Part shown: piece by piece, positions 10,003 through 18,142 of the stretch
How the letters are laid out: each line of letters opens with the position of its first letter
Position numbering within the stretch: the stretch's first letter is position 1
Source of the DNA: a virus
Virus record (IMG/VR): IMGVR_UViG_3300046691_000374
Location: 1-24,354 of that record
Length of the DNA: 24,354 nucleotides
Direction: 5' to 3' (one strand)
Program-made: the position numbers and the translations under genes
The notes under the pieces: generated by a model
Databases searched by the model: none
Seen by the model: the letters and a program-made list of their open reading frames with translations, nothing else
Told to the model about the DNA's origin: nothing

Positions 10003-10156
10003 TCTCGCGTCTACACACCTCTACCCAGCGCCAGTAATCCACCATGTCTAGCCGTTCGATTTCAGACGGCTGCATTCGCAGTACCAGTAGCAGTGCTTCG
10101 TCCCAGGACTGCAGCAATGGCTCTGCCGGCTGCCATTTCCCGCAACACCTCGGTGG
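9962..10156 (-). CDS. Second tail-chaperone frame (E'-like), probably made by frameshift
   Basis: The +1 (equivalently -2) frame relative to the chaperone is open from just after a TAG at 10157-10159 to a TGA at 9962: 64 codons with protein-like content (SWDEALLLVLRMQPSEIERL, then WRWVEVCRREINRR). The 3' part resembles the small GpE-type extensions that follow tail chaperones. It overlaps the chaperone by 95 bp and has no start with a good Shine-Dalgarno; ATG at 10075 is possible but poorly preceded. In Mu the two chaperone frames are joined by a -2 frameshift, and this geometry fits. The slip site was not identified; GCGGGAAATGG at 10133-10143 lies in the allowed interval. Confidence 0.6.
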   Translation of the reverse strand, partial: PPRCCGKWQPAEPLLQSWDEALLLVLRMQPSEIERLDMVDYWRWVEVCRREINRRIELAEQSSS

Positions 10157-10376
10157 CTAACGACGAGTCGGCAATGTCGAACTCGCCGAGGTCTTCGAGG
10201 GTGATGCCCAGCATCTTGGCCACGAGCATGTCTTCCATGGCACCTTCGTCTTTGGTCACCGCCTGCGCGGCGCTGATGTCTTTGCGTTTGAGGCGCGTGA
10301 TGGGCAGGGTTTTAAGGGTGTCGCCGCTGGCGCTTTTGAAGGGGAATTTGAGGGTGAAGCTGAGTGCGTCGGTCAT
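10062..10376 (-). CDS. Tail assembly chaperone (Mu gp41 / TAC_7-like)
   Basis: 104 residues matching Phage_TAC_7-type chaperones: LSFTLKFPFKSASGDTLKTL near the start, then PITRLKRKDISAAQAVTK at about 26-43 and a helical end. Such proteins coat the tape measure before the tube polymerises. GGGAG precedes the ATG. It is the first gene after the motif at 10441-10460 and probably opens the promoter-distal tail operon. In a P2-type order it would directly follow the tube gene FII, but 7 kb of accessory DNA lies between them. Confidence 0.88.
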   Translation of the reverse strand: MTDALSFTLKFPFKSASGDTLKTLPITRLKRKDISAAQAVTKDEGAMEDMLVAKMLGITLEDLGEFDIADSSLATEVLREMAAGRAIAAVLGRSTATGTANAAV

Positions 10377-10808: not shown

Positions 10809-11177
10809 CTACCCAAGCTTGTGGTTGTCCAGTACTCGATTGACCGCTAACTCACCCAACATTATGACCCGTTGCAGCACCAGCATCGTTTGGCGTCGTG
10901 GGTTGTCCGTCAAGTCGACGAGATCGTTGACCATGGCGCTGGCTGATGCCAACGATTCGCAGGCCTCGACGAGCAACGTTTCGTCATCCACCGCTGCGTC
11001 GATGGTGAAAATGGTGCTGGGCCTGTGGGGCGGTATCTGCGTTTTCGACGCCCCGGGGTCGAGGTAGAAGCTGAGTGCGCGGTCGGCCGCCTCTTTCATT
11101 TTCTTGGGGTCAAGATCAATAAAGGCGTCGTAGGGTAGCGGACCGGTATTTGGGGGATTAGGTGTAACTTTGAACAT
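10809..11177 (-). CDS. DUF6124-type protein
   Basis: 122 residues starting MFKVTPNPPNTGPLPYDAFI, the usual beginning of the DUF6124 proteins that are common in Pseudomonas. The middle (KMKEAADRALSFYLDPG at about 27-43) and the helical C-terminal part (TLLVEACESLASASAMVNDL at about 64-83, then VIMLGELAVNRVLDNH) also fit. GAGAGAAAG precedes the ATG. The function is unknown. These genes are often found as small stand-alone units in Pseudomonas genomes. Here a 200-bp structured leader lies upstream, including an apparent terminator, so expression may be controlled after transcription starts. Confidence 0.85.
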   Translation of the reverse strand: MFKVTPNPPNTGPLPYDAFIDLDPKKMKEAADRALSFYLDPGASKTQIPPHRPSTIFTIDAAVDDETLLVEACESLASASAMVNDLVDLTDNPRRQTMLVLQRVIMLGELAVNRVLDNHKLG

Positions 11178-11213
11178 AGTTGCTTTCTCTCATAGTGAGG
11201 CGGCAACCATCTC

Positions 11214-11401
11214 GCTACTAAACAAGAGGGTGGCAGCTGTGCGCGAGTTAGTAGACCGGATAAGCAACAAAAAACCGGCGCGCCCTAGGGCGCCAAGCGC
11301 ACAGCCACCATGAAGACCAGGCGAATGCCTGTCTGGATGATACTTGTGCAACCGTTATCGCTTAATCCGGGCTACTAAACCCGACCACTGATGGGCAGTG
11401 G
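11214..11401 (-). ncRNA. Structured leader RNA candidate upstream of the DUF6124-type gene
   Basis: Several complementary segments occur in this stretch. TTAGTAGACCGGATAAGC (11248-11265) can pair with 11360-11378 with few defects. GGTGG and CTGTGCGC (11229-11244) pair with 11297-11309 around a 3-base bulge. GCTACTAAAC occurs twice (11214-11223 and 11371-11380), and both copies can pair with the same partner at 11247-11254. Local hairpins sit at 11317-11336 and 11385-11401. The first two long pairings interlock, so they form a pseudoknot or exclude each other. The minus strand is preferred because the central hairpin is followed by six T on that strand. No ORF with protein-like content was seen here. 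Function is unknown; attenuation of the next gene is a hypothesis. Confidence 0.5.
11269..11294 (-). terminator. Intrinsic terminator inside the leader
   Basis: On the minus strand a strong GC hairpin (perfect palindrome GCGCCCTAGGGCGC at 11280-11293) is followed after CCGG by six T (11269-11274). It lies about 92 bp upstream of the DUF6124-type start, where a terminator only makes sense as the end of a small RNA or as an attenuator. Confidence 0.6.
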
Positions 11402-11747
11402 TAGGGAAACAATAGAGGCCAGGGGCAAGGCGCACAAGCCGGCGGATTCTGGCTTAACCGTAGGCAACGGCGCAAGGTCTTGTAGCCTTCGGGAAGTAAC
11501 ACCGAGTGTCTTTAAACACGCACGTTAAACGCATGAGCGCTTTAAAAAACCGAGGAAGCGTCTGACATTTTTCCCGAGGGCGCGACCTTACCCGCTGACC
11601 GCTTTTAATCCTGCCGGACTCGCGTGGCGACGTAGTGTTTTTGAAGAGGTTTTGGTAGGCGGATGCCGGATTGGTCACCGGCTGATGGGGACGACGCTGA
11701 TCGCTACGGCGCTCTCTTTCAATGGAGCCGTGCGGGGGTGAAAAAAG
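11402..11747. other. Intergenic stretch without a supported gene
   Basis: No ORF with a good start and protein-like composition was found on either strand. A minus-strand frame of 141 codons covers 11454-11879, but it is rich in Arg, Pro and Ser, has no Shine-Dalgarno and runs through an inverted repeat, so it looks spurious. GCTTTTAATC at 11600-11609 repeats only half of the late motif. If the leader RNA below 11401 starts further upstream, its promoter would lie here; none was recognised. Confidence 0.5.
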
Positions 11748-11831
11748 ATGGTAACTGTACGCCGGCAATGGGACCGAATAGGAGCTTTGCAATACCGGTT
11801 TGCCCGAGGGCACCCGGCGTACAGTTACCAT
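11748..11831. repeat. Perfect 18-bp inverted repeat with 48-bp spacer
   Basis: ATGGTAACTGTACGCCGG at 11748-11765 is exactly complementary in reverse to 11814-11831. The spacer contains smaller partly complementary pieces (ATACCGG, CCCGAGGGC). No ORF explains it. It could fold as a long RNA stem, be a paired protein-binding site, or be the trace of a small mobile element. Confidence 0.7.
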
Positions 11832-11883
11832 TAAAATCAGACATGGAGCTGCCTGTCCCGTCAAAAGAAGCACATACAACCTA

Positions 11884-12195: not shown

Positions 12196-13077
12196 ATGGC
12201 GAGAATCAACATCCGCGATTTACCGGACCATATCCACAAAGCTATTAGTGACTCTGCTGACAAAAACAATCGGTCGACCGAGGGAGAAGTTCGCTCAATT
12301 TTACAGAGCTATGTGTCGGGCTTAGAGGACAAGCCCGCGCCCATCGAAACCCTTCGCCAGAACTGGCAACGAGGCGTGGGGCAGCGCCTGGATCAGCTGT
12401 TTGGTTTCGTGCGCAGAGATCAGGTTTTTCGTCTTAGCGAGCCTCAAAGCATCGTGGGGATCGCTCGAATTATTGGGGAAGAAACGCCTGCACACCTGTT
12501 GGATTGCCTGGAAGGCATTGCGTCACCGTCTTTTGATCTGCTGGATCGTGTTGCGGCGTGGTCTGGCGGGTCTTACAACTGGTTGGTCAGTGGGATGGGG
12601 ACGGTTTTTCCAGTTGAAAATATTGGCAGCAGTTACCAAGATTTTTTCCTGTATGACCGGCAAAGCAAGGACGTTACCTTCAGCATGTTGCGCATCTGCG
12701 GCGGTCGCTCTGACGGGATGCTGTTGTGCATTCGGCACGACGGCGCCAAGCAGACCTATGCCAGTGGCTATATTTACGAGCACTTCATGCTGAAGGCAGG
12801 AATGGGTTCGGGCGGAAGTGGCAATCTCAACCGGTTCATTCGCTTTCTGAAAACGCACTGCGGCAACCGCGTTCTGAAAGCCTATAACTATGAAGAAACT
12901 GAGCTGAATACGGAGCAAGGTACCCATCATCCTCTGTTTTACTTACGCTCGGCTGACAGTGCTGATTGGTTGAGGAAGCTGTTTGATGGGGAAGATCCAG
13001 CCAACTGGTTGGCTGGAAACTCGCCGTTGTGGCGGGACATGAGTGAGTTGCCGTTTGGCAATGGTGAGGCTGAGTGA
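12196..13077 (+). CDS. Two-domain DNA-binding regulator: RHH (FitA-like) plus repressor-like region
   Basis: 293 residues; AGGAG lies 7 bases before ATG 12196. Residues 1-42 (MARINIRDLPDHIHKAISDS, then STEGEVRSILQSYV) are a ribbon-helix-helix of the FitA antitoxin type. Residues about 60-135 look like a helix-turn-helix module of phage repressor type: IVGIARIIGEETPAHLLDCL followed by PSFDLLDRVAAWSG and NWLVSG, in which a five-helix HTH is plausible. The rest (140-293) has no recognised domain. No toxin gene follows; the next gene is convergent. It may be a regulator of the island or of the prophage. The RHH is confident, the second HTH is tentative, and the targets are unknown. An inverted repeat lies just upstream. 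Confidence 0.8.
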   Translation: MARINIRDLPDHIHKAISDSADKNNRSTEGEVRSILQSYVSGLEDKPAPIETLRQNWQRGVGQRLDQLFGFVRRDQVFRLSEPQSIVGIARIIGEETPAHLLDCLEGIASPSFDLLDRVAAWSGGSYNWLVSGMGTVFPVENIGSSYQDFFLYDRQSKDVTFSMLRICGGRSDGMLLCIRHDGAKQTYASGYIYEHFMLKAGMGSGGSGNLNRFIRFLKTHCGNRVLKAYNYEETELNTEQGTHHPLFYLRSADSADWLRKLFDGEDPANWLAGNSPLWRDMSELPFGNGEAE

Positions 13078-13097
13078 GATCAGAATGTTTTGAGCCC

Positions 13098-13132
13098 GCT
13101 CTTATGCATCGCGCTGGGCGGTGCATAAGAGC
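13098..13132. terminator. Bidirectional hairpin between convergent genes
   Basis: GCTCTTATGCA (13098-13108) and TGCATAAGAGC (13122-13132) are perfectly complementary and the stem extends inward by about four pairs. It lies in the 66-bp gap between the regulator (plus) and the HEPN/zinc-ribbon gene (minus), so it probably stops transcription from both sides, although no T-run is present. Confidence 0.65.
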
Positions 13133-13143
13133 CAAACCATAGA

Positions 13144-14121
13144 TCAGTCATTCCCATACTCCGGTTCATACTCCATTTCTCGTTCGCTGTCCTCCGAGTA
13201 ATCGTCGGCAAGGCCTGCCTCGTGCAATGCAGCCTCCCCCTCAAGATGTAGGAGGCATGTAGGGCAGTAGAACTCCATTGGTGAGAAGAACTGGGTAACG
13301 GTCTCGTAGCCTGTACTGAAGTCTTGATCAGTCACTTCCTCATCTGCTCGATCACCGCCGAGGAAGGCTGTGCAGGCGCACGCAGGGCAGATTTGCTCCC
13401 AGTGATTGTCCAAGTAATAACGGAAATTTTCGAGGTATGAAAAGCTGTTGAAGCTTTTTGAGGCAGTCTGAAGCGCCTCTCTTTGCTTCTTGTTGTGAAC
13501 TTCAAAAAACGTTGCTTTCGCATCGGCAATTCTCTGTCGCGCCGCTTGTGCCTTAATGTCACGAAGGTGTCGCAGCAGTTCTATAGGAACTCGAGACTCG
13601 GGGCCTACCCAGGCTTCCAGATCCAACGCCATCGAGGTCAAGATAAGCTGCGCGGCGCTCCAGAATTCGCCTTCCCAAACCTCTAACAGCATTCCGGAAA
13701 ATGCTGCATGACCTGAATGAAGTTCGGCATTCCGGCGTGCCGATATGCGCTTACAGGCCTCGGAATTGGGTGTGCCGAAATTCGGAACTGTATGCTTAAG
13801 TCGGGCGAAAACAACGTTTGCATCAACCGTTTTCACTGCGGTGTTGGTATTGAACCCGCACGCTTCAAGAAGACTGTTTGGGTTGACGGAATCGACGACA
13901 AGGCAGGGATGGATTTTTGCGAGTGAAGCTTTGGCTAGCAGCTCCAAAGCCAAGGCGGCCCACATCTGGAAAACCTCATGATCCGCGCTGTCTTTGGCCT
14001 TCAAGGCACGATGCGCAAAAACCCGCGACTTCGCAAATAGTCCGTCTGCAGACAGCGCAACAGGGTCGTGCTTACCTAGCGCCGATTTCGAGTGTTTGTC
14101 CATCTTTTCCATGTCGTTCAT
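13144..14121 (-). CDS. HEPN-like protein with C-terminal zinc ribbon (possible RNase)
   Basis: 325 residues, last gene of a minus-strand operon. A helical N-terminal region (about 45-70, HEVFQMWAALALELLAKASL) leads to RRNAELHSG, where Arg130 and His135 form the R-N-x3-H arrangement (R-x4-H) used by HEPN RNases as active site. A second pair of cysteine knuckles (CPAC at 245-248 and CPTC at 286-289) would bind zinc, and the end is very acidic (SEDSEREMEYEPEYGND). ATG 14121 is chosen because GGAG, which lies over the stop of the previous gene, is 5 bases upstream; a GTG at 14127 overlaps that stop as GTGA. Translation is therefore coupled to the oxygenase. The HEPN call rests on motif and helical context only. 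I do not recognise the protein as a known toxin or Abi family. Confidence 0.75.
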   Translation of the reverse strand: MNDMEKMDKHSKSALGKHDPVALSADGLFAKSRVFAHRALKAKDSADHEVFQMWAALALELLAKASLAKIHPCLVVDSVNPNSLLEACGFNTNTAVKTVDANVVFARLKHTVPNFGTPNSEACKRISARRNAELHSGHAAFSGMLLEVWEGEFWSAAQLILTSMALDLEAWVGPESRVPIELLRHLRDIKAQAARQRIADAKATFFEVHNKKQREALQTASKSFNSFSYLENFRYYLDNHWEQICPACACTAFLGGDRADEEVTDQDFSTGYETVTQFFSPMEFYCPTCLLHLEGEAALHEAGLADDYSEDSEREMEYEPEYGND

Positions 14122-14123
14122 CG

Positions 14124-14786
14124 TCACTCCATTACAGTTGTGCGAAGAAGATAACGGGCAGTGTCCCGCTCAGCATTCGCACGCCGATGCAAACATCGCC
14201 AGTTGTCGATTACAGCGATTAGTCCAGGCGCCCATGCAATTTGGTCCGAGACCGAAGCTCCTTCGTCCTCTACCTCTTCCTGCAGGCGCTGCGCGGTTGA
14301 ATCCAGAGGCGACATACAGCCCGGATCATATCGGTAGTACGACTGTAGCTGACTTGTGACTGTGGCGTAGAAACTGTGGGCGCCATTGCACACCCTGAAA
14401 TTTGCTTGCCGCGCCGCCTCGCTATTCAGCGCAAGGCTTTGACGGGCATCCCAGATGATGGTGGCTGCCGTGTTTGCCGAAGCTTGTGCGCAGGCTAGGA
14501 CCAAATAACGGGGAGGAACTGGCCAGTGCGCACCATCGGTGTGCCACGGAAACGACCCTGTACCATAAAGCGCACTTAGGGATCTCGGCTTCGCCGCGTT
14601 GGCACCAGTGGGTCGAAGATGATCTACAAGATCGCCTCCCTTGCGGCTAGCCTGAGGCGATCCCAGCTGCCGTGCTATACCAGCAACCAGATGCTGAAGG
14701 GTATCCATTGTTGAACCTTGGGCGATGAGCACAGCCCAGCCGTTTGCGATCAACTTTTCTTCCACACACTCCAGCTGGTCGTGCAT
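14124..14786 (-). CDS. TauD-like 2-oxoglutarate/Fe(II) dioxygenase
   Basis: 220 residues from ATG 14786, preceded by AAGGA; in-frame starts at 14810 (ATG) and 14816 (GTG) lack a Shine-Dalgarno. The facial triad is visible: PWHTDG with His82 and Asp84, and the distal His200 in DNWRCLHRR, followed by the arginine-containing end ARYLLRTTV that binds 2-oxoglutarate in TauD/TfdA enzymes. These enzymes hydroxylate small molecules or modify macromolecules; the substrate here is unknown. The stop overlaps the start of the next HEPN-like gene, and the HEPN-like gene upstream ends 96 bp before, so the three genes form one operon. A dioxygenase placed between two putative RNases is unusual. It might make a modified nucleotide or protein, but that is speculation. 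Confidence 0.85.
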   Translation of the reverse strand: MHDQLECVEEKLIANGWAVLIAQGSTMDTLQHLVAGIARQLGSPQASRKGGDLVDHLRPTGANAAKPRSLSALYGTGSFPWHTDGAHWPVPPRYLVLACAQASANTAATIIWDARQSLALNSEAARQANFRVCNGAHSFYATVTSQLQSYYRYDPGCMSPLDSTAQRLQEEVEDEGASVSDQIAWAPGLIAVIDNWRCLHRRANAERDTARYLLRTTVME

Positions 14787-14882
14787 TTGTTGATTTCCTT
14801 GGGGCTCCATTGACACTGATTAATTGCGATAGCTGGTCCATGCCAATGCAAACATCTAGTCGAGTGTAGAAGCTGTGATCGG

Positions 14883-15641
14883 CTACGCTGGATTCATTTT
14901 CAGTGGATTTCGCTTAGATAGCTCTTGGCACGCAAAGTAGAAAAGCGCAAGGCTGCTCGACTCTTCAGTAGAGTTAGGAGACATCCAGGATACATGGGCC
15001 TTGAACGCTGAGATCAGGCACAAAAAATCGATTGCAGCGATGGACTTGTAGAAATTAATCGGCTTCCCATAGTCTTCGTCGGCGTATGCGCCGTGAAGAA
15101 TTCCGTGCCGGTTTGTCATATCTGGATGTGGATATTTTTCTGATCCAATGTACATATTCCCTTCAGTAAAATCCGAAAAGGAATCCATCATCGAGACTAG
15201 TTCACCTACGGCCCCTTTACTGTTCTGAATGGCATCCTGCTTGCAGTCATCAGCAAGAGCCTTAAACCCGGGCCGAATGTGCCCGAAGGTCACCCCTCGA
15301 TCAGCCGCAATCCTTTTGGCTGCACCCTCGAGCACCGGCATCAGCCCAGCTACAGCAACATGATCAAGCCCCATGAAGTGCGCTTGAACGGCCTCGGAGA
15401 TGATTACCTTGTAGTCCTGAACGAATGGAGTGATTGGGTATCGTTCGGTGACCATGGCCGCTAAATTTACTGGGGAGTACGCTCGCGCTAGTACAACTTC
15501 CAGATCATCTTGAGTGAATAATTCGCCTTTTTCATGAATGTCGGCGCACACAGAACTCAAAAAACCCATGGTGATATAAGGCGGTATGAACCACCCAACA
15601 CCACCCAGCGTCGATCGGTAATGCTCTAAAGTCCCTTGCAT
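14883..15641 (-). CDS. HEPN-like protein (R-x4-H), first gene of the operon
   Basis: 252 residues. The C-terminal half has the layout common to HEPN proteins of defence loci: LMPVLEGAAKRIAADRG at about 100-116, then NRHGILHGAY with Arg178 and His183 (R-x4-H), followed by a hydrophobic helix (NFYKSIAAIDFLCLISAF). The N-terminal half is helical with no recognised domain. ATG 15641 is preferred because GAGG lies 6 bases upstream; the frame is open to a GTG at 15686. No membrane segment is evident. It is divergent from the HNH gene, with 195 bp between the starts. RNase activity is inferred from the motif; the role as toxin or sensor is unknown. Confidence 0.78.
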   Translation of the reverse strand: MQGTLEHYRSTLGGVGWFIPPYITMGFLSSVCADIHEKGELFTQDDLEVVLARAYSPVNLAAMVTERYPITPFVQDYKVIISEAVQAHFMGLDHVAVAGLMPVLEGAAKRIAADRGVTFGHIRPGFKALADDCKQDAIQNSKGAVGELVSMMDSFSDFTEGNMYIGSEKYPHPDMTNRHGILHGAYADEDYGKPINFYKSIAAIDFLCLISAFKAHVSWMSPNSTEESSSLALFYFACQELSKRNPLKMNPA

Positions 15642-15836
15642 ATCCATCCTCACATTATTGATCAAGAGAAGCGTTTTGCGATTCACTCGTCGGATTCGCT
15701 TGCTGCCGGTTAGGACTGGCGAAGTAAGGCCAGAAGCTCGCGTCCGAAGACGTCAGCATAGAAAGATCAGAAATCCCGCCGCTGGGTCCTCGTATATCTG
15801 ATAAAAGTTTGCGACCGAACACTATCAGGAAACCTC

Positions 15837-16562
15837 ATGGCGTTTTTAGTAAAAACCGCAACCCTCATAGCCTATCGCTCGGGGTACATCTGCAATAACC
15901 CTACGTGCAATGTCCTAACGATTGGACCTGCAATCTCTGATCCGCTACTCCGAACTAAGAAAGGAGAGGCCGCTCACATCGTGGGAGAAAAACTTGGTGC
16001 AGCGCGCTACGAGGCTATTGGCAAAGCGCAGATTGAAAGCGCAGAAAATGGACTCTGGCTTTGCGTTGCGTGCCACACGTTGATCGATAAGAATAATGGT
16101 GTGGACTATGAGAAGGAAATGCTTCTCGAATGGAAGCGTGACCACGAAGAGCAGATGTCGGTGCTACTCAGAACACACCGCAGCCCGCTCCCATTGGTGC
16201 GGCGGTTCAGTGCGAATATGAAGGTGGCGCAAGACATGGTCGATACGCTCTCCCACCGTGGCGTCATGTTTCAGTCGCACTTTATGGAGGACCCGACGGC
16301 GGTCATCGAATCCATTAGTCAAATCAGACTCAGGCTGCAGCGATGCTTGCGGCAGATAGATCTAGATAAAAAACTCCGGGAAATATGTAGTGATTTGATC
16401 AGTTCATGCCGTGTGGTCATGAACGAAAACACGCAAGATGCCACAGGCCTTAACTCCTATGTAGATGTACTGAGGATACGTTCTGGCAGGTCTCTGTATA
16501 GATTGCAAAATGAGTACGGTTGCGATGTCAGGGGCCCCATCACTTCAATCGTACGTCCATAA
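15837..16562 (+). CDS. HNH endonuclease with unknown helical C-terminal domain
   Basis: 241 residues; AGGAAA precedes ATG 15837. The N-terminal 105 residues form a zinc-containing HNH nuclease: Cys19 and Cys24 in GYICNNPTC, His47 in EAAHIVGEKLGAARYE, Asn71 in SAENGLWLC, Cys76 and Cys79 with His80 in CVACHTLID, and YEKEMLLEWKRDHEE at 91-105. This layout resembles the HNH domains fused to sensor domains in CBASS effectors (Cap5 type). The C-terminal 130 residues are helical and contain no SAVED domain that I can recognise. The enzyme probably cuts DNA when activated; what activates it is unknown. It is followed by the DUF2441-like gene 74 bp downstream, and the two may be one operon. Confidence 0.87.
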   Translation: MAFLVKTATLIAYRSGYICNNPTCNVLTIGPAISDPLLRTKKGEAAHIVGEKLGAARYEAIGKAQIESAENGLWLCVACHTLIDKNNGVDYEKEMLLEWKRDHEEQMSVLLRTHRSPLPLVRRFSANMKVAQDMVDTLSHRGVMFQSHFMEDPTAVIESISQIRLRLQRCLRQIDLDKKLREICSDLISSCRVVMNENTQDATGLNSYVDVLRIRSGRSLYRLQNEYGCDVRGPITSIVRP

Positions 16563-16636
16563 AAGCAAGCCTGGCTCGCGGGTTGTGGGCCAGTGGTTCA
16601 CAGCTCCCAACAACACTCCAACAAAAGAGAGATAGC

Positions 16637-17344
16637 ATGACCATTTTCATCAAAACTATGCCCCGTGAACGTTACCGCGCTGGTCTGGTTCACAATACGA
16701 ACACCTACAATTATTCAAAATCTGCAGGTATCGAAAACCGGGCTGATAGCACTCTTTTCGATTTGCTCATCGACATTTCAAAAACGACAGATACTGGATT
16801 TGGACTTCTGGTCGCCTTTGCAATAAACGCCTTTAATGAACGCTTATCCTCGCAGATAACTGATGCCATCGAAAAAGGTGAGTCCGTAGATTTGCTCCTC
16901 ACCGAGGAGTTCAAAGCATCAGGCCGTCTGGTCGACGCCAGCCAGCTACATACCGTTATAAATCTCGCCTTACGTGCAGATCTCGGCGGTCCGACAAACA
17001 CTATCGCTTGCCGTTTTTGGGAGCACCTTTATGAGAAAGTTCGCGCTGAAGAATTTTCTGATCGGCCAAAACGGCTGAAGTCATTTTTTGTATTCAAAGA
17101 CGAAGAGACTGCTGCCTGGTACAAGGAAGCCCACAAGCAGGGAGAGGTGACTTGCCAAGTTAAGGTCACTGAGTGTCGCGTCGCCTTCGAGGCAGACATG
17201 ACGATTTTGGATGATGTAAACGAAACCAAGAACTACGCGCAGGCAAGACCTGAGATCTGCCGCTACTGGCGGCAAGAAAGGAACGAAACACCACGAATTG
17301 AGGTGCTTATCCAAGGAAAATTCAAGGTACTTGGAAGCCTTTGA
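16637..17344 (+). CDS. DUF2441-like protein of unknown function
   Basis: 235 residues from ATG 16637 (GAGAGA upstream); the frame is open further left, but that part overlaps the HNH gene and is not protein-like. The C-terminal half resembles DUF2441 proteins as I remember them: RFWEHLYEKVRAEEF, DRPKRLKSFFVFKDEETAAW at about 148-167, a VKVTECRVAFEADMTILDD strand-rich segment, and YWRQERNETPRIEVLIQGKF near the end. Proteins of this kind have been proposed to have an ADP-ribosyltransferase-like fold; I cannot confirm that here. No signal peptide or membrane segment. It follows the HNH gene and may be its partner. Confident as a gene, tentative as to family. Confidence 0.75.
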   Translation: MTIFIKTMPRERYRAGLVHNTNTYNYSKSAGIENRADSTLFDLLIDISKTTDTGFGLLVAFAINAFNERLSSQITDAIEKGESVDLLLTEEFKASGRLVDASQLHTVINLALRADLGGPTNTIACRFWEHLYEKVRAEEFSDRPKRLKSFFVFKDEETAAWYKEAHKQGEVTCQVKVTECRVAFEADMTILDDVNETKNYAQARPEICRYWRQERNETPRIEVLIQGKFKVLGSL

Positions 17345-17617: not shown

Positions 17618-18142
17618 TTACGCCTGCCCGATGTTCTTTCGATACTTAGCCAACTGATCCTCACCACCCACGCGAAAAATATTCGCCAAATAATCCAACA
17701 ACACCACCTCATCCCCATTGATCATCTGCCGCACATACGTGGCCGAAAACGGTGTCTCGTACTTGGTCGGGTCGCGTGGTTTGTGCGTACCCAACTGGTA
17801 CTCCTTCCCGGTAATGGTCATGGTCGTCACCAGCGGAATCTCGTTCACCAGCCCTCCATTGTTGAACACCTGAACGTTAGACCGACACTGCAGTTGCACG
17901 CTCTTGAACGGCGTCACCAGCTTTCTGGCCGCCTCAAAGTACAGGCTGTTCCAAGTGATTTTCCCCTCCAACTTGTCGATCCCATCCGGTAGCTCAATCA
18001 GCCCGACCATACCTAACCCCTGAAAGTCGCTCATCACGGTCTTGATGGTGCCCAGGTCTATCTCTTCACACTTGCCAAAGAAGCTACTGCCATCCAGATA
18101 AACGTTGGCGTTGGAAATGCGATGCGCGCTAAAGCCTGCCAT
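17618..18142 (-). CDS. FII: Major tail tube protein (P2 FII-like)
   Basis: 174 residues of the Phage_tube family. It starts MAGFSAHRISNANVYLDGSS, and FFGKCEEIDLGTIKTVMSDF (about 20-39) and GLIELPDGIDKLEGKITWNS (about 47-66) are family features. It builds the inner tube of the contractile tail. The ATG directly follows the TAA of the sheath gene, so the two are coupled. It is the last gene of the right-hand late block: the next 7 kb are island B. Confidence 0.95.
   Translation of the reverse strand: MAGFSAHRISNANVYLDGSSFFGKCEEIDLGTIKTVMSDFQGLGMVGLIELPDGIDKLEGKITWNSLYFEAARKLVTPFKSVQLQCRSNVQVFNNGGLVNEIPLVTTMTITGKEYQLGTHKPRDPTKYETPFSATYVRQMINGDEVVLLDYLANIFRVGGEDQLAKYRKNIGQA

Follow-up and report, generated by a model that had tools for sequence, protein, structure and literature searches.

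Probable C4 antisense RNA units before DUF6124 and other small genes in Pseudomonas and a virus fragment

What does the structured leader before a DUF6124 gene in a phage fragment do, and does it act on that gene? The window, by which we mean the whole stretch of DNA analysed (24,354 nucleotides; positions 1 to 24,354 of IMG/VR virus record IMGVR_UViG_3300046691_000374), is a virus fragment with phage tail genes on the minus strand, and the locus is part of a cargo stretch that has the tail tube gene (17618-18142) on one side and the tail assembly chaperone gene (10062-10376) on the other. An initial annotation had placed interlocking stems and a terminator at 11214-11401 before a DUF6124-type gene, and had suggested a regulatory RNA or attenuator that switches between folds. 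The gene assignment is sound, as the minus-strand gene at 10809..11177 (122 aa) matches PF19619 with 65 bits against a cut-off of 27. As for the leader, we consider it very likely that it is a C4 antisense unit silencing DUF6124, its putative regulated gene. Other genes of the cargo stretch (12196-17344) encode a FitA-like RHH protein (12196-13077), a TauD-like protein (14124-14816) and an HNH_2 protein (15837-16562), along with three genes without a Pfam match; this region is possibly a defence or lysogenic-conversion region.

The comparison with Rfam that had been recommended revealed two families on the same strand, which were already in Rfam and had gone unrecognised in the initial annotation. 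The C4 antisense RNA (RF01695) matches over its full model, 1-87, at 11226-11315 on the minus strand (69.1 bits, gathering score 45, E 8.7e-12), and c4-a1b1 (RF03163) matches upstream at 11364-11415 on the minus strand (52.8 bits, gathering score 46.7, E 6.5e-11). The closing stem P1 and helices P2 and P3 of the covariance model are present, the a1/b1 element precedes them, and the a2 and b2 targets follow, b2 at the ribosome-binding site; in the window these targets are weak but in place. The locus is a member of the C4 family in all respects that could be tested, and it is not an immI operon proper.

On the minus strand, the order of elements is promoter-like site, a1, b1, C4, a2, b2 and the ATG at 11177. 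The promoter-like site, TTGTGC-17-TATTGT at 11409..11437, was picked out by eye, and a consensus promoter scan returned nothing there at its threshold; a comparable pair with 15-18 nt spacing occurs in 91 of the 112 distinct units among the matches listed. The a1/b1 element (11360..11415) consists of a hairpin followed by a1 (TTAGTAG, 11372-11378) and b1 (TAAGC, 11360-11364, assigned by eye). Within C4 (11226..11315), covariation marks the single-stranded segment a' (CTACTAA, 11248..11254) as the partner of both a1 and a2, and the P3 loop, or b' (TTTTTTGTTGCTTAT, 11260..11274), contains a run of six T. The mature C4 likely spans 11229-11309, ends that we take from the C4 RNA of phage P1; its first bases, GGT at 11309-11307, are the same as at the C4 5' end in phage P1. 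The a2 target (TTAGTAG, 11215..11221) stands immediately behind C4 and is assigned from the repeat match, covariation and its position, which resembles that in phage P1. The b2 target (AAGCAAC, 11179..11185) lies between a purine-rich Shine-Dalgarno-like stretch (11186-11191) and the ATG, and is the complement of GTTGCTT in the P3 loop.

This anatomy accounts for much of what had been noticed in the leader. The 10-base direct repeat GCTACTAAAC is present at 11214-11223 and 11371-11380 with 100% identity and holds a2 and a1, so that the single partner for which its copies were said to compete is a' of C4. The two interlocking stems are likewise real, with 11248-11261/11365-11378 (14 nt, 93% complementary) crossing 11231-11244/11297-11310 (14 nt, 86%). 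For the uncut transcript, predicted energies are -94.7 kcal/mol with a1/b1 paired to C4 and -93.8 kcal/mol with the C4 fold enforced; since these two exclusive folds are nearly equal, the stems are plausible alternatives, in keeping with the proposed switch, and from the C4 5' end onward C4 is predicted to fold alone. The span of 11214-11401 encloses all the elements for which it was drawn but leaves out b2 at the start codon and the promoter-like site.

Within the window itself, pairing energies argue less clearly for the gene as target. The P3 loop matches its own ribosome-binding region over 7 nt with -9.5 kcal/mol, a weak match compared with the -11.8 kcal/mol obtained for phage P1. When duplex energies are crudely summed for each of the 622 starts of ORFs of at least 60 aa in the window, the DUF6124 start comes only 30th, which also counts against the assignment, but no other start in the window has a2 and b2 both in place.

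Genomes and viral contigs supplied at least 134 relatives of the DUF6124 protein for comparison. Among the matches listed, a C4 lay directly before the gene in all 133 relatives with upstream sequence, as called by a stem finder without a false-positive control of its own, and Rfam found a C4 in 19 of 19 sources tried, 17 of which came from this set of relatives. Duplicates and a locus with only 9 nt upstream (L122) were left out, and L072, whose P3 lies outside the pattern used, is not among the 112 distinct units, while Rfam does find its C4. In these 112 units among the matches listed, the six-base core of a' takes seven forms; the exact complement of a unit's own core is present behind its C4 (a2) in 111 units and before it (a1) in 111, and the forms of other units are almost never present around a given C4. 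One locus, L126, breaks this rule and counts against it. Pairing of the P3 loop with its own leader averages -13.3 kcal/mol, compared with a mean of -7.9 (sd 0.19, lowest -8.6) over 2000 permutations, and the longest matches fall mostly at -20 to -5 of the ATG. The loop also fits its own upstream element (-10.7 kcal/mol versus -9.0 permuted, lowest permuted -9.5). In an alignment of 38 sequences, made up of 37 of the 102 distinct C4s listed plus a second C4-like element of the window (C4L, below), 12 of 27 stem pairs have changed on both sides and 97.9% of cells are paired, and this covariation exceeds all 500 shuffles and all slid controls. At the level of sequence comparison, pairing of a' with a2 and of the P3 loop with the ribosome-binding site is strongly supported. 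The initial annotation had named a lack of conservation or covariation upstream of other DUF6124 genes as the outcome that would speak against it; that outcome was not obtained, since the leader is conserved before these genes and its stems covary.

The phage C4 represses by blocking translation of icd, which is followed by Rho-dependent termination. In phages P1 and P7, C4 is reportedly an antisense repressor (Citron and Schuster 1990). By analogy, one promoter in the window would yield a single transcript carrying a1/b1, C4, a2/b2 and DUF6124. The C4 part, as the Rfam match and covariation show, folds independently and would probably be excised by RNase P at the GG motif, as in phage P1. In the free C4, a' would then pair with the adjacent a2 and the P3 loop with the ribosome-binding site, which, as in P1 and P7, would block DUF6124 translation. 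As long as the transcript is uncut, the upstream a1/b1 can pair with C4 and thereby rival the C4 fold, which is the switch first suspected; this competition probably tunes how C4 is released or how active it is. Since the pairing code differs from unit to unit, each of the many units in a Pseudomonas genome would mostly regulate itself, and an incomer bearing the same code would presumably be silenced as well. The known mode of the C4 family, according to the available text of PMC5320573 and the P1 record, is antisense pairing with the ribosome-binding site.

The DUF6124 protein is modelled as two long helices, 65-89 and 92-118, which are confidently predicted, while the rest is weak (pLDDT 73.6, pTM 0.45). 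A PDB fold search with this model gave a best E of 0.23 and only generic helical matches, and thus no function. In an alignment made without L057 (stop codons) and L113 (near L110), the N-terminus MFKVTPNP is almost invariant, with M1, F2, K3, T5, P6, N7 and P8 in 58 of 58 sequences and far more variation in the residues that follow. In type I toxin-antitoxin modules, the toxin is as a rule a short membrane peptide. It is possible, though in our view improbable, that the unit is such a module, with a toxic DUF6124 and C4 as its antitoxin RNA: small proteins under antisense control occur here in many dispersed copies, and Icd of phage P1, which occupies the same position, inhibits cell division according to the available text of PMC8198154 and a note in the P1 record. 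However, DUF6124, at 122 aa and predicted to form a helical hairpin, is no such peptide, and C4 and its target appear to share one transcript instead of having separate promoters.

Whether the C4-DUF6124 unit belongs to a wider arrangement can be judged from Pseudomonas chromosomes. Within the genus, 54 of the 59 genomes examined have at least one C4 match, 53 of them over the cut-off; copies per genome range from 0 to 54, with a median of 17. A search of 185 genomes of the class yielded DUF6124 in a single one, the Pseudomonas genome at the centre of the search. Five genomes picked for holding DUF6124 (G001-G005) contain 131 C4s and 107 DUF6124 matches, which form 81 C4-DUF6124 pairs. The 26 of 107 matches without a C4 directly upstream count against a strict association. 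Among the 20 of these 26 that were looked at, some are second genes behind a C4-led one, some belong to a leaderless variant, and some have apparently lost their C4. At L193 and L187, a DUF6124 gene lacks C4 and has an a1-like element shortly before its ribosome-binding site, as might be left by a deletion of C4.

All but one of the 50 remaining C4s lead into a recognisable small gene, the exception being L170, which leads into none; one of these 49 genes has an early stop (L184) and another is seemingly in two frames (L166). Grouped by sequence, 30 of the 49 genes form an unnamed superfamily with three groups; the others are DUF3077 genes (7 directly behind C4 and 4 behind a leader ORF of 31-38 aa), six genes of a Bro-N type and two of a further group, which again follow a leader ORF. 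Pfam searches with eight members returned Bro-N for one (41.2 bits) and DUF3077 for two (103.2 and 42.3 bits), and the other five of these C4-led members had no match over the cut-off. Profile comparison aligned the three unnamed groups with one another, making them one superfamily, and found no relation between DUF6124 and the other C4-led families. Of these 50 non-DUF6124 C4s, 38 were parsed, and 36 of the 38 have a matching a2 and a1. At six loci (L141, L142, L144, L155, L143 and L148), a short ORF of 31-72 aa stands ahead of the DUF3077 (or other) gene, like icd before ant in phage P1. The ORF at L166 starts with MVKITPNPP, the DUF6124 N-terminal motif, and runs into Bro-N-like sequence, apparently in two frames, and is a possible chimera.

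Most sampled chromosomal units sit among ordinary genes. Among 20 flanking proteins scanned at 14 loci, 17 have a Pfam match, mostly to metabolic, transport, regulatory and surface genes, together with two defence-type genes (Mrr-like and AbiJ/Abi_C) and one PAAR gene; these matches include no phage structural family. One site is variable: near selB, a C4 unit follows beyond tRNA-Sec in 5 of the 16 Pseudomonas genomes compared (L354-L369). A prophage or tailocin region of Pseudomonas fluorescens Q8r1-96 (EU982300, L353) contains a C4-DUF6124 unit next to prtR and a colicin M-like gene.

On many Pseudomonas chromosomes there appear to be dozens of C4 units, and most have a pairing code of their own. 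The comparison of paired DUF6124 units covered G004 and G005, where the own leader is the best target of 22 of 28 and 19 of 23 C4s, respectively. Among non-DUF6124 units the same holds for 8 of 10 in G001, 18 of 18 in G003 and only 5 of 11 in G002, the last of which counts against private codes. Seen from the leader, the own C4 is less often the best partner (15/28 in G004, 17/23 in G005, 5/10 in G001, 6/11 in G002 and 13/18 in G003).

A second C4-like element, C4L, lies at 11744..11835 on the minus strand and has six T after its closing stem and no gene of its own; its 44.0 bits place it 1 bit under the RF01695 gathering score. Among the matches listed, 17 of 134 loci have it again ahead of their main C4, mostly 540-700 nt upstream, and its loop GCATTGCAAAGCTCC is conserved in the closer loci, or most of them, unlike the C4 loop. 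Its best-scoring start in the window is its own complement, a trivial hit that was discarded. The a2/b2 target pattern of C4L occurs in 106 viral stretches, which as a set look unspecific, and in 0 of 149 Pseudomonas genomes. An element without its own gene would suit a view in which C4 is chiefly a trans-acting small RNA against other phages or host genes, its place beside DUF6124 being a by-product of shared history; so would the 21 expressed C4-like small RNAs of A. baumannii, whose targets are given as unknown in the available text of PMC5320573. We regard this view as quite unlikely, because pairing with the own leader covaries and that leader is the best target in most units, and because C4s without DUF6124 also lead into a small gene in 49 of 50 cases.

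DUF6124 genes that are 95-98% identical in DNA to that of the window carry C4s only 66-69% identical and with other codes, and among 239 unit pairs whose proteins are 85% identical or more, the a' core differs in 103 and the P3 loop in 207. Near-identical genes with different leaders imply that leaders and reading frames are exchanged, or that leaders diverge much faster than the gene. We put forward a tentative model, which may well prove too broad, wherein the C4-coded cassettes of Pseudomonas genomes form a large set that diversifies itself. Each cassette would keep a small protein (DUF6124, DUF3077, the unnamed superfamily or the Bro-N antirepressor type) locked under a private code, and recombination between leaders and reading frames would place near-identical proteins under different codes. 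The code would serve as an identity tag, such that a resident C4 silences an arriving prophage or cassette whose tag matches and an unmatched one is expressed, amounting to a chromosome-wide antisense immunity or competition system grown from phage immunity.

The attenuator half of the first proposal did not survive, and the regulatory half did, as an RNA regulator of the DUF6124 gene backed by Rfam, conservation and covariation. A cis-acting attenuator or riboswitch would alternate between two folds and stop transcription at a terminator hairpin before DUF6124. The GC hairpin (11275-11296) and T6 run (11269-11274) described on the minus strand, 92 nt before the ATG, do exist, a terminator scan lists them first as terminator-like, and the two exclusive folds of nearly equal predicted energy would fit as well. 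However, the hairpin is helix P2/P3 of C4 and the T run sits in the P3 loop, so that the supposed terminator consists of two C4 helices plus an anti-Shine-Dalgarno loop, and this loop is complementary to its own ribosome-binding region across the family. Among the 112 distinct units in the matches listed, T6 at this loop occurs in one, that of the window, T5 in 7, and a looser count of 5 T in 8 bases gives 38; no conserved intrinsic terminator precedes the gene in this set. Because the T run belongs to the P3 loop and lacks conservation, we rejected this reading as very improbable.

That the inverted repeats act as DNA, as a mobile-element end or recombination site, is hardly credible, for all that the copies are dispersed, present or absent beyond tRNA-Sec, and combined with different leaders on near-identical genes, since the covariation is that expected of paired RNA, G-U pairs among them, and the loop is complementary to sequence around the start codon.

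Reading the leader as a C4 antisense unit points to a likely regulator for two common families of unexplained function, DUF6124 and DUF3077, and sets them in a context that can be tested. It also points to a likely target for chromosomal C4 RNAs, for which the Acinetobacter work reported none. Should the codes prove as private as their pairing implies, many genomes of Pseudomonas would be natural collections of orthogonal antisense switches, tens in each, which bears on RNA evolution, prophage immunity and synthetic biology. In searches that mostly did not reach subscription journals, we found no paper on DUF6124 and, in the text available, no unit-by-unit link of C4 to DUF6124 or to other small genes; the available part of a DUF3077 paper (PMC9630843) is not on C4.

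Compared with known systems, the unit most resembles immI (c4-icd-ant) of P1 and P7, with which it shares the order a1, b1, C4, a2, b2 and start codon, DUF6124 standing in place of icd. As in phage P1, a2 lies a few nt behind C4 and b2 at the ribosome-binding site, and in some Pseudomonas units the main gene is preceded by a short leader ORF, like icd before ant. The distance from the C4 end to the ATG is 50 nt in phage P1, whose annotated record gives a C4 of 77 nt, and 45-62 nt (median 55) in the 112 Pseudomonas units among the matches listed. In the window, C4 is followed by DUF6124 only, with no antirepressor gene ant, and Pseudomonas units differ from immI in numbering dozens per genome, the sampled chromosomal ones among ordinary genes. 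Full-model matches above the gathering scores join the unit to RF01695 and RF03163 (Weinberg et al. 2010, PMC2864571), whose available text names Proteobacteria and phages but makes no link to DUF6124. Type I toxin-antitoxin systems are similar in that an antisense RNA blocks translation of a small protein (putatively so here), with many paralogues and private pairing, but here antisense and target appear to lie on one transcript. The Group 1 C4-like small RNAs of A. baumannii, of which the available text of PMC5320573 describes 21 as chromosomal, with variable loops and apparently cut from longer transcripts at GGW, form a comparably large chromosomal set; their targets are unknown, whereas here the likely target is the next gene, with the code matched unit by unit. 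Taken together, the unit-by-unit link of C4 to DUF6124 and other small genes, apparently new as far as these searches reached, adds to the C4 repressor of P1 and P7 and the multicopy C4-like small RNAs of A. baumannii, which were already known.
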